Assembly: GCA_034401795.1 (NCBI GenBank)
Contig: CM067360.1
Span: 120,879,430 to 120,943,429, forward strand
DNA length: 64,000 nt
Direction: 5' to 3'
Source: Chaetoderma sp. LZ-2023a
Lineage: Eukaryota > Mollusca > Caudofoveata > Chaetodermatida > Chaetodermatidae
A model generated the notes under the pieces. The model was not told the origin of the DNA, did not search any database, and was given only the letters and a program-made list of their open reading frames with translations. A program made the translations under genes and the position numbers. Shown here one piece after another: positions 912 to 57,275 of the stretch. Numbering within the stretch: the stretch's first letter is position 1; each line of letters begins with the position of its first letter.

Positions 912-1270
912 TTATAATGCAAGCTTTGTTAGGTAATTCATTTCATTTAAGAGATGATTACGTCTGATATGAAGTTTATAGCAGAGTTTCCTGGAGATGG
1001 ATTCAATTTTCGACATTGAATCGCTTCTAATCAGGCCAAACAAGAGAGTTGTGTCGAGTAACATCTGGAGAATAAGATTCTCATCCTTGCTTATTAATTC
1101 CCAGCTATCTTCCGCCACTAGATGCTCGATTTCCGCTATATAGATGCTTCTGATATCTGCAAATTCTGGACACTGAACTAGGAAATGCATACGGTCTTCT
1201 ATAACGTTCTTACAAAAAGGACAGGCATCATTCTCATATTGATTAAATTTGGATCTGTGTGCTTGCAGAT
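912..1270 (-). pseudogene. LINE ORF2 C-terminus with Cys/His motif
   Basis: The minus strand encodes a tail with CPFCKN, then HFLVQCPEF, a C-x2-C...H-x4-C arrangement like that at the C-terminus of many LINE reverse transcriptases, presumed to bind the RNA template. The 92-residue open stretch from 1190 to the TAA at 912-914 holds the end of the protein. The CPFC half lies just upstream of the first Met and is in frame. It is separated from the RT domain by a decayed stretch (1271-1472) with stops. Confidence 0.65.
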
Positions 1271-1472
1271 AGTATGTACCGGTTAGTAACCTTGCCTTGA
1301 TGACGGCACGTTTTACATCATATGTATTTTATGTCACTATTGACCAGATCGGATGTGGCCTTCCGATATCAAGGATGTCAACATTCACAAACCGGGCTGA
1401 TGATTTCTGCTTAATGTCTTCCTTTAGCATCTCTAGGACTACTGTGTTTACAGCTTTTTGGACATGACGCTT

Positions 1473-2906
1473 CTATACACATTTAGGTGGTGGGTCTTGT
1501 AGCAACAGGTGGGCTGATGGTAATTGATATTTTTGTAAAATCAATTCGACATCTTGAAACAAACTGTGTCTGCCTTCTCTTTTCATAACGCGCTGCCGAA
1601 TTGCTAACTGTTGTTCGACAGAGCCTTCACTCCTTAGTATTGCACCAAGTAATGTCAGCTTCTTCTTTTCAATTTGCGCCTCTATCGGCAGTGCACCGAG
1701 AAGTAAATATACCAGTGAATTTGCACAACTATTTGGAAGTGATTGCAATTGCTTTAAGATTTTCCTTTCATGTGTAGTGATCTGACTCATTTCCTTCTTT
1801 GGTATAATTAATGCCTCCAGTCCATACGGACATCGTGGTATTACATATGTTGACCATATTTTTATACTGACAATTGGGCGTAGTCCATTAATTCCATGAA
1901 AGCCAGCACCCATCAATGAATAAGCTGTTTCACGAGCTTTTCTTATAATTTCTTTGCCTAGGCCACTTTTGTCGTCTGTTCTTATTAGTCCCAGATGTTT
2001 ATATTCCTTTACCACGTCCATCTTTTCTTCGTTTAGTGTCCACTCATATTCTGTTTCTTTGCCCTGATTGAAAACCATCACTTCGCTGTTGGCAATGCCA
2101 TTAACATACCGTTCTTTATTTGCATGCATTCTTGCAGCATTCAGTCCCACCTGTAGCCCATCTGGGGATGTATCTTGGACTGTCTTATCATCACATAGTG
2201 TTATTGAGCCCAGATATATTGAACCAATATGGAGACCAGTTGCTGTTTGCTCAAGTAATTTTAGTAGCGGATCCTCATATGGTTTATGAAAATCAGGAGA
2301 TGTGACCCCACCTTGTAGAAGGCCTTGTTTGACAGCACACCTTCTACTTCTATGTCCCTCGAACTTGACTTGTGCTGACATGTTTCTGTGCATTTCATTC
2401 GCAATCAACCATAGCTTCCCTGTTATACCGAGGAGGTAAAGACGACGCAATAATGAAGAATGCCAGATAACATCAAAGGCTTTCTGTGCATCCATAAAGC
2501 CAACATAGCAGGGCACTTTATTTTCTCTGCATTCCGCTATAACTTCAGTCATTAGTACTGCTGCAACTGATGGTGATTTTCCAGGTGTGAAACCAAATTG
2601 TAGATTACTTTGGCTTTCTGAAATCAATGGTCTAATGCGTTTAAGGTAAAGCTTCTCAAAGACTTTTCCCACTATGGATGTCACTGTGATTTTCCGGTAA
2701 TTATCTGGGATCGTCAACGACTTTCCTGCCTTCTTATGGATTGATGTAATCAGACCAGTTTGAAATGCATCTGGATATATGCCTTCAGCTATGATCTTAT
2801 TATACAGTATCAGAAGAGTGTGGATTAATAAGACACCACCGTGTTTTAGGTGCTCTGATGAGAGTCCATCAGAATCTGAGGCCTTTTTCAGGTGTAGCTC
2901 ATTCAC
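1473..2906 (-). pseudogene. LINE reverse transcriptase domain (ORF2)
   Basis: A 477-residue open frame encodes the RT fingers and palm. Visible motifs are KAGKSLTIPDNYRKITVTS (LINE motif 1 region), FGFTPGKS, motif A FMDAQKAFDVIW with the first catalytic Asp, motif B QGLLQGGVTSP, and motif C ITLCDDKTV. Motif C normally reads F/Y-A-D-D; here it is L-C-D-D, so both Asp are kept but the two preceding residues are changed. The start is not a real initiator: homology to the family should continue upstream across a frameshift. Reverse transcription of LINE RNA at a nicked target is the known role of the family. This copy is very probably inactive. Confidence 0.88.
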
Positions 2907-3546
2907 AGCACTGTCTACATCACCCCACGTGAAGGGATCTGGACTGGACCGATCATCACCACAGATAGATTTAATGTTGGTTATATCATCCTCAACCTGA
3001 TCTTTATATGCCTTATTAAATGTGAAGTTTCCTTTGGTGTTCCTAGCTCTTCAAAGTAAGTTGCCCATCCTTCTATTATATCATTTCCATGATACTCCTT
3101 ATCATTCACATGCAATATTTCTGTTGACAGAATTTTCTGTGATGTTTTTCTCTGAGTTCGTATTAGCTGTGCAAACAGTCACTGATCTGAGGGTAGGGCA
3201 TTCATGATCTTGTTTGTAGTATCTTGCTCTGCTCTTGTTACAGCCTGCCGTTGCTCTCTCCGATACGCCTTTTTAGCTTCTCTTAATTTGATCTTTGATG
3301 GATGTTTTGGATTTGAAGGTCTACCGGCACGAACCCGTTGATGATGTATTGTTCTGGATATGTTTGATGTTTCTGCAAGTTTATAATTCCAGAGTCGACC
3401 CTTCTTTGAAATCTTTGGTTTCCTCTCTGGGATTGCCCGTTTAGTACTGGCCTTCATACATATGGTGACAGTAGTGATAAGTTCGTCTACCGATTTGTTT
3501 GATGAGCAGAGATCCTTTTGATGCATCATTCTTTCCAGATTTTTTT
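2907..3546 (-). pseudogene. LINE ORF2 linker between endonuclease and RT
   Basis: The minus strand keeps a 116-residue open stretch (3529-3179), lysine/arginine-rich with KKAYRREQRQAVTRAEQD, typical of the region joining the endonuclease to the RT in LINE ORF2. Between 3179 and 2907 the protein is traceable only in pieces (for example GWATYFEELGTPK in one frame) and is broken by stops. Confidence 0.6.
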
Positions 3547-4340
3547 TTATTGAACCAGATCACCTTTCCCCCACTGAAGTTTTCTTTCTTGTACTGGCTT
3601 CACCACATTGTTACTCATGCTGCTTTCCTTAACCGTAATGACTGCTCTTATTGGTGTATGATCTGAGCAGTTGTCGTATTCCTTTGATACATGCTGAACT
3701 TGTTTTATGAGATCTATGTTTGATGCAATGATATAGTCAATCTGTGAAGAGCCATTTGCACATTCAAAGGTTTTTCCAACTGGATAATTTGGAACTAATT
3801 CTAACTGGTTCTTGGTGCAGAAATCTTTAAATAATTTGTCTCTTGCATCTGGATATTCTGAATGCAATGATGCATTTAAATCGCCGCATATCAGGACATC
3901 ATTGGAGCCTTTATATTTGTTCAGTAGTTCCTGCCATTCTGCTAAGAGTTCCATATATTCCTCATTATATTTGCTAAACCCTTTACATGGGGCATATGTT
4001 GCTATAATGATGACTGAAGGTGATGAGTTTATTTTTATGCAGACTGTTCTATTTGAACCATCAGGTAGACTTTCAATTATACTATTTAGCTCGTCTCTCC
4101 AGCTTATACTTGATCCGCCGTATCCCCGTGGTAACTGTATGGGGGTAATGGATTGCCTTCATCCACAGATCTGGAATGATGCTGGAAACAAGTAGTTTTT
4201 TCATCCAGTATCTTTCACAGTCATATAGCCAATGTTCTTGCAGGGCTATAATGTCTATTTGATCTCTCTCACACAATTTCTGGGTATACATAAAGTTACC
4301 CTTTATGTTCTTGATATTGAAAGATGCTATCTTGAGATTT
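3547..4340 (-). pseudogene. LINE APE-type endonuclease domain
   Basis: The N-terminal motif KIASFNIKNIK is readable on the minus strand near 4330-4295, followed by IDIIALQEHWL (catalytic Glu), then LICGDLNAS (Asp/Asn pair), SSQIDYIIAS and CSDHTPIRAVI (terminal SDH). These are the ordered motifs of exonuclease-endonuclease-phosphatase enzymes that nick target DNA for LINE insertion. The domain is split by a frameshift and lost sequence between the 4291-4082 and 3954-3547 open stretches, so it is not functional as written. Confidence 0.85.
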
Positions 4341-4386
4341 TTGTAACTCGGCCTTGCCCTAAAAATGACTGGTCATGATCACAAGG

Positions 4387-7300
4387 CTACTGGATTGACT
4401 GGTTATCATGTTGCTGTCGGTTTGAGTAGATACCATGCTCCTGCTGGTTTGACTGATAACCACACCTCTGGTTTGTTTGGTCGCCATACTTCTGGCTTGA
4501 ATGATTATTTGACTGCTGGTCTGAATATGTACACTTGTCTTGCAAATGGAATGACTGGTCACCATGCTGTTGCTTCACTGACTGGTCAACCTGTTGTTGC
4601 TGGACTGACTGGTCACCACACTTGATTGACAGGTCACCACGTTGCTGCTGGACTGACTGGTCACCATACTGGGCAGACTGGTCTCCGTGCGGCTGCTGGA
4701 CTGACTGAACGTCGACATGTTGTTGCTGGACTGACTGGTCATCATGCTGGACTGACTGGTCTCCATACTGGACTGACTGGACACCATACTTTATTGATTG
4801 GTCACCATGCTTGACTGAATGGTTACCATGCTGCTGATGGACTGACTGGTCACCATGCTGTTGTTTAACTGACTGGTCACCATGCTGCTGTGGGACTGTC
4901 TGACTGGCTGGCTGGTCATCATACTGGACTGACCGGTTAACATACTGAACTGACTTGTTACCATACTGGACTGATTGGTCACCATAATTGACTGACAGGT
5001 CACCTTGATGTTGTTGAACTGACTGGTCACCATGTGGTTTCTGGACTGACTGCTCACAATGCTGTTGCTGGACTGACTGCTCGTGACACTGGACTGACTG
5101 GTTACCATACTGAACTGACTGGTCACCATATTTGATTGATTGAACATCATACTGCTGCAGGACTGAATGGTTACAATGCTGCTGCTGGACTGACTGATCA
5201 CCATGCTGTTGTTGAACTGACTGGCCACTAAGCTGCTGTGGGACTGTCTGACTAGCTGGCTTGTCATCATACTGGAGTGACCGGTTAACATACTGGACTG
5301 ACTTGTTACCACACTGGACTGATTGGTCACCATACTGGACTGACAGATCACCTCGATGGTGTTGGACTGACTGGTCACCATGTGGTTGCCGGACTGACTG
5401 GTCACCATGCTGTTGCTGGACTGACTGGTCGTAACACTGGACTGACTGGTCACCATACTGGACTGACTGGTCAGCGTATTTGATTGATTGAACATCATAC
5501 TGCTGCTGGACTGAATGGTTACCATACTGCTGCTGGACTGACTGGTCACCATACATGGATGATTGGTCACCATATTTTGCTGACATGTCACCATAATATT
5601 GTTGGACTGACTGGTCACCATACTGTTGCTGGACTGACTGATCACCATGCTGCTCTTGGACTATCTGACTTACTGACTGGTAACTATACTGAACTGACTG
5701 GTCACCATACTGGACTAACTGGTCACCACATTGGACTAACTGGTCACCACATTGTACTGACTTGTCACCTTACTTGACTGACTCGTCACAATACTTGACT
5801 GACTGATCACCATACTTGACTGACAGGTCACCATATTTGACTGATTGATCACCATGCTGCTGCTGGACTGACTGGTCACCATGCTGTTGTTTGACTAACT
5901 GCTCACCATGCTGCTGTTGGACTGTCTGATCGCCATGATGATGTTGGTCTGACTGATCATCATACTGCTGCTGGACTGACTGGTCACCAGAATGCTGTTG
6001 ATCTAACTGGTTATCACACTCCTGGATTGACTCTTTATCGTGGTGTTGGGCTGAATGGCTATCATGCAATTGGACTGAGTGACTAGCAGATTCAGATTGG
6101 TTTTACTGGCTACCAAGTTCAGACTGATTTTGTATGCCATTATACTAAGTTAAGTTGTTAACATTTAAAGAGCGCGGTGCAATTTGGCAGTACTGTCTAT
6201 TCACATTTAGGACACTCATTAGCTGGGAGTGCATATTGCGAAGTTCAATTTGGCTTAGATTCATGTGATGACACATTTCCGTGTTCATTTGCTGCTGAGC
6301 ATAATATTGTGTCATGTGGTTATGGCTACCATGTTGTTGGAATGACTGGCCACCACGTTGCTGGTGGGTTTGCTGACTGCCACATTGCTGATTTGAAAGC
6401 CGGCTACCACGCTGTTTATGGGATGGCCGAGTACCCTGTTGCCGGTAAGCTTTGTGTCTACCATGCTGCTGGAGAGCTGGCTGTCTATCACTTTGCTGGT
6501 GGGCTAGCGGACTACCATAATGATGTTGAGCTGACCGGCCACCATACTTGTGATGGCTTGGCTGACCACTGTGTTGCAAGTGGGGTGGCTGGATAACCTG
6601 TTGCTGATGGTTTTGCTGGCTAACATGTTGATGTTTCGATAGCTGGCTGTCATGTTGCTGGTGAGCTGGCTGGCTGCTCTGTTGCTGATGGAATGGATGA
6701 TTACCCTGTTGTTGATGGGCTGGCTGGCTGCTCTGTTGTTGTTGGACTGGTTGATTACCGTGTTGCAGATGAGCTGGCTGGCTATCATACTGCTTGTGTG
6801 ATGACATACTACGATATTGCCATGGCTGTTGATATGCTTGCTGGATGCCATGTTGCCGGTGGACTGGCTGGCTGCTTTGTTGCTGATGGACTGGCTGATT
6901 ACCAGGTTGTAGGTGAGCTGGCTGGCTATCATACTACTTGTGTGCTGACTGGCTACGATATTGCCATGACTGCTGATGTGCTGGCTGGCTGCCATGCCAA
7001 TGCTGGGTTGGCTGGCTACCCCGTTGCCATGGCTGCTGGTGTCCTGGCCGGGTACCATACTGTTGGCGGGCTGACTGGTTGCCATACTTCTGCTGGTTTG
7101 TCCGGTGTCCATGTTGCTGGTGGGCTGGCTGGTTGCACTGTTGAAGATGGGCTGGCTGGCTGCTCTGTTGCGGATCGATTGGCTGGCTACCCTGCTGCAA
7201 GCAGACTGGTTGGTTACCTTGTTGTAGGTGGACTGACTGGCTACACTGTTGCACATGGACTGTCTGGCTGCCATACTGCTGGTTGGCTGGCTGGCTACCA

Positions 7301-7560
7301 TACTGTTGATGAGCTGGCAGGTCACGATATTGCTGGTGGGATAGCTGATTTCCATACTGAGATCCTTGTAGGGTCTGCATTGCCTGTTGATGCTGTGTGT
7401 GCATAGTTTCTTCCATGGTATTAATTCTTGTTCGCATACTTATTTCAAAGTGTAACAATTGATTTAATATATGCTGCACTTGGTTTGAAAGTAATTGTAC
7501 ATTTGTTGCCATGAGCTGGTTAGTGCTGTTTTGATGGTCAGTGCTTGAACTTGCTCTCAC
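4387..7560 (-). repeat. Q-rich minisatellite reading frame inside the LINE ORF1
   Basis: About 3.1 kb of degenerate repeats, mostly multiples of 3 bp built on GACTGACTGGTCACCATG-like units. On the minus strand, open segments 7560-6934, 6807-6145, 6069-5770 and 5586-4387 all lie in one frame and encode Gln/Ser/His/Gly/Asp-rich sequence with motifs such as QSVQQQHGDQSV and PAHQQHGSQ. They look like remnants of one domain of about 1,000 residues broken by a few stops. Other frames and the opposite strand are also open (Ser/Thr/Val-rich sense frame; Gly/Leu/Thr/His-rich antisense) because the repeat lacks stops in several frames. These are treated as shadows. It sits exactly between the ORF1 coiled coil and the ORF2 endonuclease. 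Confidence 0.75.
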
Positions 7561-8113
7561 CTCTGATTGATCTTCTCTTATATCCCTGCCCCCCCCCCCC
7601 CCCCAGTATTCTATTACTATTTCTCAGTTCCACTATTTCTCCTTCCAGATTATTTATCATGGTACGGGATGTCATCAGTTGTAGCTTGGCAGACCCTAAC
7701 TCCTTTTCCTGTTCTATGCTCTTTATGTGCAGTTCTCTGTTCTTTCGATCATGTTGTCTAGATTCATGGTCTTTATTGCTTAGTTCTTGCTGTGCTTTCT
7801 GCAATAAGTCTTTTAAGATGTCAATTTCATTTTTATCGTCCATTATTGGACTCCTTGAGCTGTAAGAGTCTGGGCAATCAGTGCCAGTTGGCAGGCTTCT
7901 CTGTGCATTTACTTTATGTATTGATTGTGCAGTTATATTTCTAGTCTGAGTTATTTCCTTGTCCCCTGTTGATGTTAGTGGTGGCGGCGAGGAGCATATA
8001 CTGATAGCTGATACAGTTTCAACTGGATTTTGTGTTTCTTCTTGCTCTGAAAGTATTTCAAAAATTCCTTGTTGGCTTTGATCCTTTTGCAATTGACTGA
8101 AACTTGTGCACAT
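7538..8113 (-). pseudogene. LINE ORF1 coiled-coil segment
   Basis: A 191-residue frame with a Ser/Thr/Pro-rich start and then a heptad-like charged helix (EIDILKDLLQKAQQELSNKD onward, then EQEKELGSAKLQLM and NNLEGEIVELRNSNRIL). LINE ORF1 proteins trimerise through such coiled coils and bind the element RNA. The frame runs into a G16 homopolymer (C16 at 7589-7604 on plus). After the tract a different frame continues cleanly into the Q-rich domain, so the tract is the likely site of a frameshift. Confidence 0.65.
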
Positions 8114-8667
8114 ATATGGTCTTCTATATCAGTGTTATGATGTATAAGGTCATATTCATTCATGTTTTCACAATTCCAATGGTACCAAGACTTACAGCTG
8201 GAACACTCAATTGTTTGTCCTCCAGCACTCAACCCACAGCTAGAGCAGATTGTATCATCTATGGCTTCATCTGAATCTTCTGAAGAGTCAACACCTCTGG
8301 GTTGATTGGAAAATCCATCTAGAATTTCTCCAGAGGTGTTGCAGGGAATTATTGCCGCTAGCGCCAGCTCATTATATTGAGGTGTAGCATCTGAGCGTTG
8401 TAACTTTGTCGTGGCCTCGCCATTCTCATAAATACAGCTAATAATACTCGTCGGTTTGTTGCTCGTCTCTTGACTTGCTCTTTCATTCCTTGTTTGCTGT
8501 ATTTGCATGTTACACATCTTTTCTATGTATTTGTTTACATCATGTAGATCTGGGCCCATCTTCCACAGTTGTTGCAGCATTGGCAGGATGTCATCACCAA
8601 ACCTCTTTTGACACTTCCCAGTGACATGAATTTGACATTTTGTGTGGAACATGTTAATAGTATACAT
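7975..8667 (-). pseudogene. LINE ORF1 PHD-finger domain
   Basis: A 230-residue frame. The front part has MYTINMFHTKCQIHVTGK, resembling a conserved segment of ORF1-type proteins in invertebrate LINEs. An acidic linker leads to a PHD-like zinc finger: CSSCG, then ECSSCKSWYHWNC, then a closing Cys at HIC, about residues 143-190. The last Cys pair is damaged: a frame change occurs right there, and the downstream frame reads CTSF where C-x2-C is expected. PHD fingers bind histone tails; a role in chromatin targeting of the LINE is inference. Confidence 0.75.
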
Positions 8668-9049
8668 GAGCCGTCCTTCTTGACCATTCTTCTTGACAAA
8701 GTATACTCTTATAACTTCTTGTGCGGTAGAGTTACACTCATCCTGATCTAGCTCACATTTATATATATAGTTGAGCTGGTTCAGAATTTGCTTAAGCCGC
8801 TGTATTCAGTTCATATAATGAGTTAGAGCCTCCCCTACTGATAGATGTGATTTCTTCTTTTCTACATGCATCTGCCTTTGTCTTCAGTGCTTTTTCTGTA
8901 TTTAATGTATAGTCCTTAGCTCGTATAGAGACGTTATTATTTTTCGTGCGTCTTTTGTTGTCATCCCTAGATGGCGTAAAAATCATTGGAGATCTTGTCT
9001 CTCTACGCTCTCTAGACTGGGTAATACCGCTGTTCTTTATTAGCTCCAT
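8668..9049 (-). pseudogene. LINE ORF1 N-terminal basic segment
   Basis: An 85-residue open frame from the Met at 9049 is rich in Arg/Lys/Ser (RERRETRSPMIFTPSRDDNK). It is followed, across a stop, by sequence in frame with the PHD segment (VYFVKKNGQEGRL just upstream of the Met at 8667). It is probably the beginning of ORF1; whether 9049 is the true start cannot be decided. Confidence 0.45.
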
Positions 9050-9380: not shown

Positions 9381-10700
<1,320 letters not shown>

Positions 10701-16651: not shown

Positions 16652-17006
16652 CGACACCTTAGCGCATCGTTATACCGTACGACACTTTCCGGGAATATGG
16701 CCCCTGGGTCGATACCGTGCCGACACCTTAGCGGCATCGTTATACCATACGACACTTTCCGGGAATATGGCCCCTGGGTCGATACCGTGCCGACACCTTA
16801 GCGGCATCGTTATACCATGCGACACTTTCCGGGAATATGGCCCCTGGGTCGATACCGTGCCGACACCTTAGCGGCATCGTTATACCATGCGACACTTTCC
16901 GGGAATATGGCCCCTGGGTCGATACCGTGCCGACACCTTAGCGGCATCGTTATACCATACAACACTTTCCGGGAATATGGCCCCTGGGTCGATACCGTGC
17001 CGACAC
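16652..17006. repeat. 70-bp tandem repeat, 5 units
   Basis: Units begin with CGACACCTTAGCGGCATCGT at 16652, 16721, 16791, 16861 and 16931. The first is 69 bp, the others 70 bp, and they are nearly identical, so amplification is recent. The unit contains CTGGGTCGATACCGTGCC, which recurs outside the array at about 17098. Confidence 0.95.
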
Positions 17007-48665: not shown

Positions 48666-50280
48666 CTACTTAGATTGTGTCTAAGACTGTACTAATTACA
48701 TGTAAGATCACACAGTACCTACTTAGATTGTGTACAAGACTGTACTAACTACATGTAAGATCACACAGTACCTACTTAGATTGTGTCCAAGACTGTACTA
48801 ACTACATGTAAGATCATACAGTACCTACTTAGATTGTGTCCAAGACTGTACTAATTACATGTAAGATCACACAGTACCTACTTAGATTGTGTACAAGACT
48901 GTACTAACTACATGTAAGATCATACAGTACCTACTTAGATTGTGTACAAGACTGTACTAACTACATGTAAGATCATACAGTACCTACTTAGATTGTGTAC
49001 AAGACTGTACTAACTACATGTAAGATCACACAGTACCTACTTAGATTGTGTCCAAGACCGTACTAACTACATGTAAGATCATACAGTACCTACTTAGATT
49101 GTGTACAAGACTGTACTAACTACATGTAAGATCATACAGTACCTACTTAGATTGTGTACAAGACTGTACTAACTACATGTAAGATCACACAGTACCTACT
49201 TAGATTGTGTACAAGACTGTACTAACTACATGTAAGATCATACAGTACCTACTTAGATTGTGTACAAGACTGTACTAACTACATGTAAGATCATACAGTA
49301 CCTACTTAGATTGTGTACAAGACTGTACTAACTACATGTAAGATCACACAGTACCTACTTAGATTGTGTCTAAGACTGTACTAACTACATGTCAGATCAT
49401 ACAGTACCTACTTAGATTGTGTACAAGACTGTACTAACTACATGAATGATCATACAGTACCTACTTAGATTGTGTACAAGACTGTACTAACTACATGTAA
49501 GATCATACAGTACCTACTTAGATTGTGTCTAAGACTGTACTAACTACATGTAAGATCATACAGTACCTACTTAGATTGTGTACAAGACTGTACTAACTAC
49601 ATGTCAGATCATACAGTACCTACTTAGATTGTGTACAACTGTACTAACTACATGTAAGATCATACAGTACCTACTTAGATTGTGTACAAGACTGTACTAA
49701 CTACATGTCAGATCATACAGTACCTACTTAGATTGTGTACAAGACTGTACTAACTACATGTAAGATCATACAGTACCTACTTAGATTGTGTTCAAGACTG
49801 TACTAACTACATGTAAGATCATACAGTACCTACTTAGATTGTGTTCAAGACTGTACTAACTACATGTAAGATCATACAGTACCTACTTAGATTGTGTACA
49901 AGACTGTACTAACTACATGTAAGATCATACAGTACCTACTTAGATTGTGTTCAAGACAGTACTAACTACATGTAAGATCATACAGTACCTACTTAGATTG
50001 TGTACAAGACTGTACTAACTACATGTAAGATCATACAGTACCTACTTAGATTGTGTCCAAGACTGTACTAACTACATGTAAGATCTTACAGTACCTACTT
50101 AGATTGTGTACAAGACTGTACTAACTACATGTAAGATCATACAGTACCTACTTAGATTGTGTACAAGACTGTACTAACTACATGTAAGATCATACAGTAC
50201 CAACTTAGATTGTGTCCAAGACTGTACTAACTACAGGTAAGATCATACAGTACCTACTTAGATTGTGTCCAAGACTGTAC
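48666..50280. repeat. 53-bp satellite, about 30 units
   Basis: Unit with CCTACTTAGATTGTGTACAA, GACTGTACTAACTACATG and TAAGATCATACAGTA; period exactly 53 bp (for example 48983 to 49036). Variation is mostly at one position after TTGTGT (A, C or T followed by C/A) and ATCATACAG/ATCACACAG. No spacers, so not CRISPR. Almost uniform, hence recently amplified. Confidence 0.98.
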
Positions 50281-51770: not shown

Positions 51771-52192
51771 CTGTAAGAGCTTAAAATGTATGACCTTGAA
51801 ATTGTGCATTATTTGAATTTTTCCCATCTTGTGTGATTTTTGGTGCAAATTTTCGTAAAACAAAACATTAACATGTTTCTGTTTTGGAAACATGCTAACT
51901 TATTTATGAGCAATACTGTATTATCGTACTTAGCGGAATTAGTTGTTGTTAATTTTTTTACCTATTTGTTCTTAGACATCTTGATAAATGAGAAAAATTT
52001 CTGAGAGGTTCTAGTAAAATACTTAAATTAGACTGATACTATACAGGCAATCACCTTTTAACGGTCAAGATTGGTTAAAGAATTCAAACATTTCCTTATT
52101 GATTGACCATGTGCAGGCCAAGTAAGACAATTTAAAAAGTATTTACCACTGAAATAATTATATAATCTTGGATGAATCTTAAAATTAATAAC
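51771..52192. other. No gene; MITE B trace
   Basis: Half of a family B element at about 52055-52155 (TTTTAACGGTCAAGA, GTGCAGGCCAAGTAAGACAA); otherwise nothing. Confidence 0.45.
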
Positions 52193-52240
52193 TATTCTAC
52201 TGAATATTTTGAAACTAATTTCACTGGGAGTTGCGGCTGG
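52193..52240 (+). mobile_element. Truncated MITE A hairpin arm
   Basis: TTCTACTGAATATTTTGAAA then CTAATTTCACTGGGAGTTGC, cut off where the GC-richer block begins; no right arm was found after the block. Confidence 0.6.
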
Positions 52241-52657
52241 TGTAGTTCGGATCGACCGGTCGGGTACCGGCCGTACCAGCTAAGCTGGGTACGCACTGCC
52301 CGTCCTGGATTCGTTCACTGAACACGGCCCCCTGGGTAGAGCCATAAGCGTATATAGGCCTATGAGAGATCGCGCTGCGAAAACGACTAAGTTCGTTAAA
52401 GCACATAATGCGCATGCGCGCGCCTAGATGCTATTTTTGATGGAGCACGTAATTTACGACCAAAATAGGATGGCACTTGTAGTGTACCGAGATGGTACCC
52501 TGTAATCTTTATTGATTGCCTGTTCCCGTTGAGTCTGGCATTAATCAAGACCAGAATTCAACGAGCTTTTTAAATCTGTAAACCATTTCAAAATCGGTTA
52601 AGAAATGGCTGAGTTATCCACAGAAAACCTGTCTTGATTATCTTCAAAACATTGCCG

Positions 52658-52802
52658 TGACGTCATAACCACGTGGACGCAGAACTTCTAGAATGTTCTA
52701 GAACAATCGACTGCGCTATTATTAGCTACGCGCTGATTGGCTGTTGCTCGAACGATGATTGGTTGGAGCCTGCGCCTGTGACGTCACGAGGAGTATAAAA
52801 GG
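52658..52802 (+). promoter_or_regulatory. Heat-shock-like promoter: HSE, CCAAT, CRE and TATA modules
   Basis: In 145 bp: CRE TGACGTCA (52658-52665); an HSE reading TTCTAGAATGTTCTAGAA at 52686-52703, four perfect alternating TTC/GAA pentamers; inverted CCAAT boxes ATTGG at 52736-52740 and 52758-52762; a second CRE TGACGTCA at 52779-52786; and TATAAAAGG at 52794-52802. Order and spacing match RNA polymerase II heat-shock promoters; transcription would start about 25-30 bp downstream, near 52825. What is transcribed is unknown: no ORF of note follows. Confidence 0.7.
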
Positions 52803-53941
52803 AGATGCGATCCAGAGATCGAGAGCATCCTCGGCCAGGGGCCGAACAGGTTGGATCTGTATCATCTACTATCAGCGCAACAGACAATACGTGTATTACT
52901 TTGCTATTTGCCGGGTTTTTCTCCCGTAGCTGGCAGTTGCCCAACCCATCGCACTAAAACAATTTTGTAACTCCCTACTTACGGGAGTAATTTGGAACTT
53001 TCTGATTATTGTTCACGAATAGCAATATCTACTTCGGAACACGAATTTGCGGTGAGGCCTTTACGGCTTGAATATGTGATTCTACAGATGTAGAGGCAGG
53101 ATGTTCTTTGATGGATGACTCGCCAGATCTGCCGGCCGTGCCTAAAAGTGGTATTTCAACCGTTACCGCACTAATATCATGTAACTTTTGACCTCAGCAA
53201 GTAAACTCTGCCCGGTGCGTCTTCTGAGCTGGCTGACGTACCCAGCACCGTTAAGCTTTGTTTTGTATCTTCATTCGCATCTGACAACCCCCGCTTGTGA
53301 TCGGGTTGTTTACAACTTCCATCTGTGCCATCGGTGTAGGGGAACTTTCTTCACCACAGTAGTACTATCGTATCTTTTGCTGACTGCTCGTTAGACATCC
53401 TATTAGGCTTGCAGTGCTGAGCGATGTCCTCCCGCCATGAGTGTTCTTGCGGAAAACAGCTTGCGGGAACCAACCTGCGGGAACTTTCCAGCTTCCTGAG
53501 AATGCATCAACGCACATCAACTACGGAATGACATATCAATTTCAGTAACACGGTGGCCTAACTTAAGAATGACTACCGAGTATTCAAGTAACCATACTAC
53601 ACAGTTTAATTATTTCTCTATATGTACTTCTTTAATTATATTGTATCCGTAAGAACGGTCCCGATGACTAAAAGGTACCGTAACGGTCTTAGGACCGCTA
53701 GTTATAATTTCTGTATTTGTTTATAGTTATTCTCATTTTCTGCAATGTGTTGCTAACCGCACCATAGTAGGTTCGTTAACCTGTACTAAGATATATAATT
53801 CTGATCATTTGATACCGTATTAATTGTTCTGGTTAGATTATGTATATATCTGGCCATCAGTTCATATGTTTTGTTTAGTTGGAGAAAATATATAGGACTG
53901 CAGTGCACGTAGGAAACACTATACAGCAACACATATATATA

Positions 53942-55596
53942 CACCTGTGCAAAAGTTAAGCACCAGCAAAAACAATAGAACGTAGAAACATGATGGTACA
54001 ACTATGCTGCCATACTTTTTGTCCCCGCGTTAGCTGACATAATTCCAAGTACGAAATGCACATGCATGCATGACTTCACGCCGCTTGATGTCCGTGCGTG
54101 GCGGGAAACAGCACACGTGTTCAGTTATGTAAAAGTCCAGTTTGAGGTGTAGAACATTACATACAGATTTAGGCGACAAGATTAGGAATTTTGTGTTCAT
54201 GACCGTGGTTTATTTGTACAGAGAGAATTAGCTCTTGATTGTGAACCGCTATGGCAAGACGAAGGTTAAGTGATCGTGTGAAATGGCAAATCATAGGCAT
54301 GCATACCACTGGTATGTCATGCAGAGAGATTGGCAGACAACTGAACATTAACCATACTGTAATCAGTCGTTTGATTGCAAAACATGGGCAAACTAACGAG
54401 GTGAAGGACAGGCCTAGATCTGGAAGACCGAAGAAGACTACTGCCCGTGATGATCGAGCCCTAGTACACCATGTTAGGAGATCTCCATTCACCAACAGCA
54501 GAGTGCTCAGCCAGCAATGGGAAACGCGCAATAGTGTCAATGTCTACCGTCAAAAGGAGACTGTATGCTGCTGGCATGAAAGCTAGGAGACCTGTCAGAC
54601 GTCCTCTCCTCACTGCACACCACAAAGAGGAGCGTCTGAGGTGGTGCAACGAAAGAAGACACTGGAACATGAGATCCTGGAGACGGGTACACTGGTCCGA
54701 TGAAAGTCGGTTCCTGCTTCATGCCACAGATGGTCGAACTCGTGTATGGAGGTCCAGACGCACGGCGTACGACCAACGTAACATCATGGGAGAAGTTCCA
54801 TTTGGTGGAGGTTCCGTTATGATATGGGGGTGCATCTCATTTGATTGTAAGCTGGATCTGTTGACTGTACCTGGAACACTAAATGGACAAAGATATCAAG
54901 ATTCCATACTGGATAGAGTTGTGGTCCCTCATTTTGTAAATCATGCACCTGGAACCCACCCTATATTCATGGATGACAACGCCCGACCACATCGTGCTAG
55001 AGCTGTGCATGAATACCTCCGCTAGAATGCCATCGAAACCCTACCATGGCCAGCAAGGAGCCCTGACATGAACCCTATTGAGCATATCTGGGACATTCTG
55101 GGAAACATGGTGAGAAGGAGGGATCCTCCTGTGCAGAACCTACAGGAATTAACAGACGCACTCCATCTTGAATGGCAACGAATACCACAATGGCGTATCA
55201 GTCGGTTGGTGACCAGCATGAGACGTCGTGTCCAGGCCGTCATCCAGGCACAAGGTGGATATACCCGGTATTAATAATGACAGTCTCAAACTCGTGCACA
55301 GATGTTAAACTTCGTTTTCAGACACCATTAATGACAATCTAGCCACGTGTGTCAACTGTAGGGCAATAGTTGTCAGTTGTGTCAACGTAACCATATTCAG
55401 GCCTCGTTTTTAAGTTCAAACAAAAACATACAGTGTTTCCCCACCATCATAATCAGCATTCCTCTAGTTGCATTATTACCTCTTGCACTAAGATGGATGG
55501 GTACATAAATGTTTATGCTATTGCTTTCTTCATAGCACATGAATATACCCTCGCATGTGCGTAAAAATAGGGTGGTGCTTAACTTTTGCACAGGTG
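53942..55596 (+). mobile_element. Complete Tc1-like element in a TA microsatellite
   Basis: Termini CACCTGTGCAAAAGTTAAGC plus four more bases, and the exact inverse at 55573-55596 (24-bp TIR). Both sides abut TATATA (TA duplication at 53940-53941 and 55597-55598). 1,655 bp, the usual Tc1 size. It carries one transposase gene, damaged in two places. Confidence 0.95.
54251..55274 (+). pseudogene. Tc1-family DD34E transposase with one frameshift and one stop
   Basis: Starts MARRRLSDRVKWQIIGMH with a first helix-turn-helix (CREIGRQLNINHTVISRLIA), then an AT-hook-like RPRSGRPKKT, a second helix-turn-helix (PFTNSRVLSQQW; STVKRRLYAAGMKARRP) and the catalytic core WSDESRF, PFGGGSVMIWGC, IFMDDNARPHR, SPDMNPIEHIW. 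From the second Asp to the Glu are 34 positions, so DD34E is intact. Defects: a frameshift at about 54525-54545 (start frame to core frame) and TAG at 55023-55025 after EYLR, probably from CAG. The end YTRY-TAA is at 55274. Length without the breaks is close to the 340 residues usual for the family. Recently dead. Confidence 0.93.
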
Positions 55597-55599
55597 TAT

Positions 55600-57275
55600 A
55601 TATGCAGCACTTTCTCCCGCCACCAACAATTTTCCACTGAGGTCGCTGTCCGTGCTATAACTCTGTTTAGCCCGGCATGCTACCAACTAAACCATTTTTC
55701 AGCTCGATAGGATAGGTTTAATATGATTAGAGACACTTTCTTCGTTAAGAAATCTGTAGTATACATGTATTCTTCTCTTCCGGCAGTGCGATAATCTAGC
55801 CCCGCACTCCGGTAAGACTCATAACTCTAAGATTTTGTCTCTCTTCATGCTCCACTCAGCCTTGTGGCTTCTTAATTGTTTGGATGTCCCTATCCGCACC
55901 ATGGGCTGATCCGAGTCTGGGAACCTATTGGGGTTTCCGAGCGGTGATGGCCAGGGTGTGGTGTCACATACATTTCCCTTGTATCTTCGGATACTTAGTA
56001 GTTAGCACGTTTGCCAATGTAGGAAAGCACTGCGAAAACATATTAATTATTATTTTATTTGCTGAATAAACCTCCCACACCGCAGTGCAAAGCAGGGCAA
56101 CTTGTATATAAACCTAATGACAGGTTAAACGGTTAGTTCCATAGGACCGGTGATGGGCGAGATACCTATTCCCACCGAATTCCATAAGAATGTCTGGGCA
56201 TGATATTTAGATCTGCCATGCCCTTGCGGGAAGGACATTTACGGTGGCTATTCGTCTTTCTCACCCCCACCATAACGATAGAACAATGGTCTAATAACGC
56301 TTTCGTGAAAAGTAACCTATGTCTTGTAACGTTTTATGTGGTTACGGAGCGGGATGTCCGGATTCTTATCCAGTTCGGAGATCTTACTAAGTAACATGTA
56401 TGAGCGCTGTCTTCAGTATGGATGTCTTAGGGCATCTGTTCTCAGTGACCGCCATGTCTAATAGCTAGGTAGATACCATAAATAAAGCGGCAACTACTAA
56501 CTCAGCATACTAAGATTAACATAAGACGGTGACGAGGGAATCCATCGGGAATCACCCGTTCCGTCTTCACGTAAAACACAACGCAACCCTATAGTCATAA
56601 TCTCACTAGGTATGGTCTTTTCTTTCTTAAGCATTTTTGGTTGAAATATTAGTGGGCCCATTTTTGCCTACTACCCTTCTTCCGCTTTAAGCAGTGGCGA
56701 CACCTTCCCGAGACGGAGGCCCGCGAGAGGCACTTGCCTCACGCAAGGATTCAGCGACGACAGTCCACGCGAAGATAATACTCCTCACCCAAACTAGCAC
56801 TAGTAGTGCCCGCGTAAGGCGCATAAGTTTTCATCCGAGATAATCTTCTTCCTTTCAGCTTAGAGGTATAATAACTTTTATTAAGTTAATTAGTTAAGTC
56901 TCGTGTACGGGAGCCTCCCTTGCGGGGATACCTCTGCAGACAGGCATACTGGTGACACAAATTCATGGGATGAGACTGTTGTATTTAATGTTCGCGACGA
57001 TGGTCGCACGGCCCCACCGGAACGATTGAGTTCCACCGGCCTTAGGAGCCGGTTTTTGTTACCTGCAGGGCAGTCTCGTACAAGGTCCGTCACCCCGAGA
57101 CCGGATGCTAACCAGCGTCGTCATTCCTTGTGCACTTGCGGCGCGGCGAGTCGACATGATACACTGGAACGTCCCGACACTACCCGGTGAGCTACACTGC
57201 CATAGGCATCTACAGCCCTCACATACAATTAATTTCAACAAGAGCTCCACAAACGGGGCATAATACACCGCCATG
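55600..57275. other. Right part of the GC-richer block, no gene
   Basis: Short ORFs only (61-95 residues, overlapping on both strands, no motifs). Contains a small inverted pair around 57025-57055 (CACCGGCCTTAGGAGCCGG). Confidence 0.4.

Follow-up and report, generated by a model that had tools for sequence, protein, structure and literature searches.

The promoter block at positions 52658-52802 of the window (the whole 64,000-nucleotide stretch of Chaetoderma sp. LZ-2023a DNA that was analyzed) is part of a solo long terminal repeat (LTR) from a Ty3/gypsy retrotransposon that is present in many copies, and it carries a perfect multi-unit heat-shock element (HSE). Heat-shock factor binds as trimers on alternating nGAAn units, and from this knowledge, together with the anatomy of the block, we infer that heat would induce the element. 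We consider it likely (probability roughly 0.8) that the block derives from an LTR promoter under the control of heat-shock factor, of which the window copy would be a leftover.

Besides a perfect four-unit HSE, the block contains a TATA box and a pair each of inverted CCAAT boxes and CREs (Table 1), all of which the original prediction had read correctly, including the placement of one CRE 7 bp from TATA and the higher GC content of the block relative to its surroundings. The HSE sequence TTCnnGAAnnTTCnnGAA occurs once in the 64 kb and 0 times in 100 dinucleotide shuffles. The CRE sequence TGACGTCA matches 13 times in the window against 0.54 expected from shuffles, and the TATA sequence TATAAAAGG by itself is at chance level (1 match against 1.05 expected); since the former is common and the latter at chance, it is the HSE and the ordered joint arrangement of the motifs that exceed chance. 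Outside the promoter block, too, TGACGTCA is strongly over-represented, with 11 sites at window positions 10984-48276. Within the first 700 bases past the predicted start, GGAACTTTC was seen by eye three times (at ~52992, 53341, and 53480), one occurrence reading GGGAACTTTCC, which resembles an NF-kappaB site.

Table 1. Coordinates of the solo LTR, its promoter motifs and its insertion site in the window
Feature	Coordinates	Strand	Basis
Left arm of palindromic MITE, insertion target	52182..52239	+	matches other window copies
4-bp target-site duplication, left copy (CTGG)	52237..52240	.	read from sequence
Solo LTR of Ty3/gypsy retrotransposon, TGTAG...CTACA, interrupted by Tc1	52241..57196	+	copy alignments, ends read
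CRE 1 (TGACGTCA)	52658..52665	+	pattern match
Four-unit perfect HSE (TTCnnGAAnnTTCnnGAA)	52686..52703	+	pattern match
Inverted CCAAT box 1 (ATTGG)	52736..52740	-	ATTGG motif
Inverted CCAAT box 2 (ATTGG)	52758..52762	-	ATTGG motif
CRE 2 (TGACGTCA)	52779..52786	+	pattern match
TATA box (TATAAAAGG)	52794..52802	+	pattern match; 7 bases after CRE 2
Predicted transcription start, U3/R border	52820..52832	+	inferred from usual TATA-to-start distance
Tc1 DNA transposon nested in LTR	53935..55603	+	31-nt TIRs; transposase ORF broken
AATAAA, candidate polyadenylation signal of LTR	56065..56070	+	role inferred; another AATAAA at 56481
Right copy of target site (CTGC), with degenerate right MITE arm resuming	57197..57240	+	by eye against MITE palindrome

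The LTR sits in a MITE, as had been claimed from the sequence, with the left arm established by search (15 of 23 matches to it within the window stop exactly at 52239) and the right arm, absent from the output of the MITE arm search, recognized by eye at 57197. The target-site duplication of this copy has one mismatch between its CTGG and CTGC sides. Of the extent first given to the block, 52241-57275, the left edge stands and the right edge moves to 57196; an LTR end with a primer site near 56694, suspected by eye, was rejected, as most fetched copies run on to 57196. Compared with several other copies, the window copy lacks ~71 bases at 56478 and ~200 at 56940. The Tc1 element nested in it, with terminal inverted repeats at 53935-53965 and 55573-55603 and a transposase in broken pieces, is younger than the LTR, and a 98.9% identical Tc1 is present in another copy (L012, described below). 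Among 10 of the 22 listed open reading frame pieces of the LTR that were scanned, three are pieces of Tc1 transposase and the remaining seven gave no match above cut-off, so that the claimed lack of a protein-like frame holds for the LTR pieces scanned but not for the broken transposase inside the LTR. Rfam and tRNA scans of the window found nothing. No long chaperone-like frame is among those listed downstream of the promoter within the window, in line with the original prediction, and the block was rejected as the promoter of a host heat-shock gene on this ground and because it has repeat copies in the genome.

At 915-8805 of the window, on the minus strand, lies a non-LTR retrotransposon with RVT_1 and endonuclease-type domains, adjoined by frames with long GDQSVQ-like tandem repeats and a below-cut-off PHD finger match, possibly its first open reading frame; a second Tc1/mariner-type transposase fragment (DDE_3, HTH_Tnp_Tc3_2), separate from the LTR-nested Tc1, occupies 9910-10653. 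Two highly homogeneous satellites were found, one at 48666-50280 (53-base unit, 30 copies, 96% matches) and one at 16652-17006 (70-base unit, 5 copies, 98% matches).

Searches of the 2.44-Gb genome returned 2,061 candidate places for the promoter piece 52600-52900 (301 bases), and all 40 of these that were scored (the window's own included) match it at 94-100%; a second LTR piece yielded 7,133 candidates genome-wide, 40 of them scored. In a further 12 copies, each examined over 10 kb, the match always begins at window positions 52235-52242, and in eight of them it stops at 57196-57199. Dispersed copies share defined TG...CA ends, reading TGTAG...CTACA with small changes in some, and without the Tc1 the LTR is ~3.58 kb long (copy L021, 1141-4722). 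Seven solo copies had both ends read, the window copy included; their 4-bp target-site duplications are exact in three (CTTA in L016, ATAG in L021, GTAG in L014), carry one mismatch in three (L017 and L022 besides the window), and are absent from one (L015), counts that are not independent because the flanks of L014 and L017 agree, as if a single insertion had been copied. These two lie 90 kb apart on G000:C17, both adjoining sister-LTR sequence with matching flanks (K 0.025), and look like a segmental duplication. At the 3' end of the LTR, 36 of 42 rows examined reach the end, at 33 distinct places, five of which have a primer site (L060 and L067 among them being near-duplicates); at the 5' end, 31 of 32 rows examined reach it, with a polypurine tract at 5/31. 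Most sampled copies look solo, one end only having been seen for most.

A complete relative was found on C12, where two same-strand LTRs (L020 and L012) lie ~8 kb apart and the element is flanked at either end by CTGG; all but some 1.6 kb of the interval was covered. The LTR in L020 is followed by AG and then, two bases past its end, by a primer-binding site that we take to resemble tRNA-Lys, and a polypurine tract precedes the 3' LTR in L012, which has an internal deletion. Pfam matches past the L020 LTR run in the order Retrotrans_gag, zinc knuckle, aspartyl protease, RVT_1, RT_RNaseH, and Integrase_H2C2, of which Retrotrans_gag and aspartyl protease score below cut-off, zinc knuckle above it, RVT_1 at 29.5 bits against a cut-off of 29.6, and the last two well above; two of the eight open pieces downstream of this LTR had no Pfam match. 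In this one element, with its reverse transcriptase in broken pieces, the integrase lies downstream of RT/RNase H, as in Ty3 and not as in copia, and the order gag-PR-RT-RNase H-integrase therefore identifies it as Ty3/gypsy. The two LTRs of a pair diverge by K 0.053 in the C12 copy (979 bases) and 0.056 in a C9 pair (L046/L049; 1,708 bases), which we regard as a single element on account of its spacing and primer site.

The original prediction had offered a mobile element such as a solo LTR, carrying a stress-inducible promoter, and had suggested a genome search for copies and target-site duplications as one way to check it. Such a search found many copies, with 4-bp duplications that are exact or have one mismatch in six of the seven solo ones read at both ends, and the multi-copy distribution, the LTR ends, the one-mismatch duplication in the window, and the complete Ty3/gypsy relative support that identification. 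Its other suggestion, an unannotated host gene for a stress noncoding RNA, would agree with a complete promoter that has no recognized open frame of its own, but it is made extremely improbable by the thousands of copies, by their LTR ends and target-site duplications, and by the existence of a complete element that bears retroviral-type genes. Such a gene is not needed given a multi-copy LTR, which rules it out as the primary identity of the block; an individual copy could nonetheless have been recruited to serve as an RNA gene.

Within the LTR family, perfect HSEs of at least three units are present in the promoter, and the fifth unit found in most sampled copies is missing from that of the window. 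Sixty-two rows were aligned and 50 kept, six of the 12 dropped being the window itself, repeated places, or duplicates and six having too little aligned promoter; four intact units are present in 36 of the 47 kept copies that cover the site. Copies found via the promoter have four units intact in 26/32 and five in 22/32, and copies found via another LTR piece, independent of the promoter, have four in 12/18 and five in 11/18, the two sets sharing three places. Genome-wide, the perfect five-unit HSE has 2,526 + 2,545 = 5,071 matches against 11 + 6 = 17 for a reversed control, these being pattern matches among which overlapping ones may count twice. By eye, 98 of 100 listed matches begin TTCTAGAA, and every fifth of these 100, 20 matches from one part of one chromosome, was sampled; all 20 align to the LTR promoter at 85-94%, one (L083) over 103 bases only and on the other strand. 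A yardstick pattern with the same mask, placed on neighboring LTR sequence, gave 1,531 + 1,581 = 3,112 matches (control 5). In viral contigs, the exact 18-base HSE matched twice, which we judged to be chance.

Whether this abundance reflects a working switch is less certain, and it is conceivable, if unlikely, that the HSE of the solo LTR is a relic without present heat response, with copies methylated or silenced or with a factor that has other needs. Conservation of the HSE inside the family is not significantly above background: its core has 9/550 non-CpG changes compared with 255/9,612 in the surroundings (Fisher p 0.17), and 12 random sites matched its conservation in 12% of draws. All motifs together have 36/2,355 non-CpG changes (p 0.001, uncorrected for shared ancestry). 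Divergence within the two LTR pairs that were compared is K ~0.05, so these particular copies are not very young. Such a relic is harder to reconcile with the excess of the five-unit form over its same-mask yardstick (5,071 > 3,112 matches) and with the multiplication of one HSE-bearing lineage to thousands of copies, and we favor the LTR promoter driven by heat-shock factor.

Related LTRs bear on where the HSE came from. A related LTR, ~69% identical, lies in L018, and its sister family comprises 4,175 candidates, of which 20 copies were fetched and taken together with L018. An HSE of at least three units is found in 0/21 of these sister copies, while TATAAAA is present in 20/21, at least one ATTGG in 21/21, and a perfect CRE in 13/21. 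Four further LTR variants, out of 15 selected, have the HSE in 0/4, two ATTGG in 4/4, and TATAAAA in 3/4; in variant L121, the place homologous to the HSE is occupied by a partial unit, CTAGAATGTT. The shared CCAAT-core pattern matches 2,746 + 2,670 times genome-wide (control 0), and among the first 100 listed cores the five-unit HSE stands at a fixed offset in 49/75 of the HSE type and 0/25 of the other type. Viewed from the HSE, the 90 five-unit matches found in this part of C1 include only 49 that are accompanied by an exact core match at the fixed offset, so that the family assignment of the other five-unit matches rests on the sample of 20.

Since LTRs without the HSE have the CCAAT/CRE/TATA core as well, the HSE alone looks like an addition. 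Judged from these alignments, the HSE is a family-specific module, whose simplest history, seen from within this genome, is a probable gain in place in one LTR lineage, as in the plant element ONSEN. In one copy, L078 (G000:C1:4788601-4788881), very little separates the first bases of the LTR from the HSE that follows them, as though the bulk of the upstream U3 had been deleted; the HSE there is formed of near-perfect tandem 10-mers (TTCTAGAACG), which suggests that it grew by tandem duplication.

The earlier idea of a captured promoter survives only for the HSE, the remaining core being common to related LTRs. Promoters of hsp genes combine HSE, inverted CCAAT boxes, and TATA, and the order of these motifs in the LTR resembles them, as it would if the LTR had captured the whole promoter of a host heat-shock gene such as hsp70. 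We nevertheless rejected this reading as very improbable, because sister LTRs have the CCAAT/CRE/TATA core without the HSE and the core thus does not come with it. The 1.3 kb upstream of four hsp70-like genes contained no three-unit HSE and no alignment above shuffled controls, in regions where, judged by eye, coding exons seem to follow an intron and the true promoters are probably out of reach. One of the five hsp70-region loci, L073 (G000:C19:246030-247330), was left out of the host hsp70-like genes; it has a bacterial-type DnaK start (MAKVIGIDLGTTNSCVSLMD) and AT-rich flanks, and its 539-kb contig is perhaps a bacterial associate or contaminant.

For the heat-responsive LTR promoter that we favor, we propose that the U3 region would act as a compact RNA polymerase II promoter made up of CRE, inverted CCAAT boxes, CRE, and TATA, to which one LTR lineage would have added a five-unit HSE some 0.1 kb upstream of TATA. 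During stress from heat or protein damage, the heat-shock factor of the host would bind the HSE as trimers and act with CCAAT- and CRE-binding factors, and transcription would start ~30 bases past TATA. The stress transcript of a complete element could then serve as genomic RNA for retrotransposition, and a solo LTR might yield a short noncoding RNA or influence the DNA next to it. In the window copy, recombination between LTRs presumably removed the interior, and the Tc1 would have inserted later.

The retrotransposon, a parasite of the genome, appears to have taken over the heat-stress switch of its host and to have spread that switch through the genome. More tentatively, and with rather less than even confidence, we suggest that a Ty3/gypsy lineage gained a five-unit HSE, expanded because heat or stress drove its transcription, and in this way seeded almost every strong HSE of a 2.4-Gb genome, thousands of its solo LTRs now being sinks for heat-shock factor and ready stress promoters near host genes. 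If true, the heat-shock network of this genome would be largely transposon-derived. Plants are already known to have heat-responsive LTRs, and nematodes to have transposons rich in HSEs; in the present genome, all 20 sampled of ~5,000 perfect five-unit matches trace to a single LTR lineage, which exists beside sister LTRs without the HSE. These HSE-bearing LTRs bear on how transposons reshape the host stress response, and the HSE-bearing and HSE-less LTRs together form a natural experiment on whether a stress switch aids transposon spread.

Compared with Ty3/gypsy (Metaviridae-like) elements, the element described here is alike in its TG...CA ends, 4-bp duplication, primer-binding site, polypurine tract, and gene order, and differs in its long LTR and long predicted leader past the promoter. 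A close parallel may be ONSEN of Arabidopsis, which, in the sections of the report that concern it, has a four-unit heat-responsive element (HRE) in its LTR, traced to duplication of a proto-HRE, and shown heat induction (PMC5059998); HREs in plant ONSEN/COPIA LTRs go with heat induction in the corresponding sections of two reports (PMC5059998, PMC3907296), and heat-responsive COPIA elements of Brassicaceae are given there as 2-55 copies per species (PMC5059998). As far as those sections describe them, ONSEN/ATCOPIA78 and the Brassicaceae COPIA LTRs likewise hold a perfect multi-unit HSE limited to certain lineages, and the partial unit in a related lineage here recalls the proto-HRE. In contrast to the ONSEN/COPIA elements of these accounts, our element has a Ty3/gypsy-type order, LTRs of ~3.6 kb, and thousands of copies in a large genome, with five HSE units to the four of ONSEN, and its heat induction is predicted where that of ONSEN was shown. 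By its anatomy it may work like ONSEN, and it is not a member of the ONSEN family. In Caenorhabditis, Helitrons hold 61.4% of the HSEs of C. elegans according to the part of the study that treats them (PMC6927752), so that there, too, the majority of the HSEs in a genome come from one group of transposons; within the scope of that account, however, those HSEs were called by a motif model and lie in DNA transposons, whereas ours follow one exact pattern and belong to an LTR that has the HSE within its own U3 promoter.
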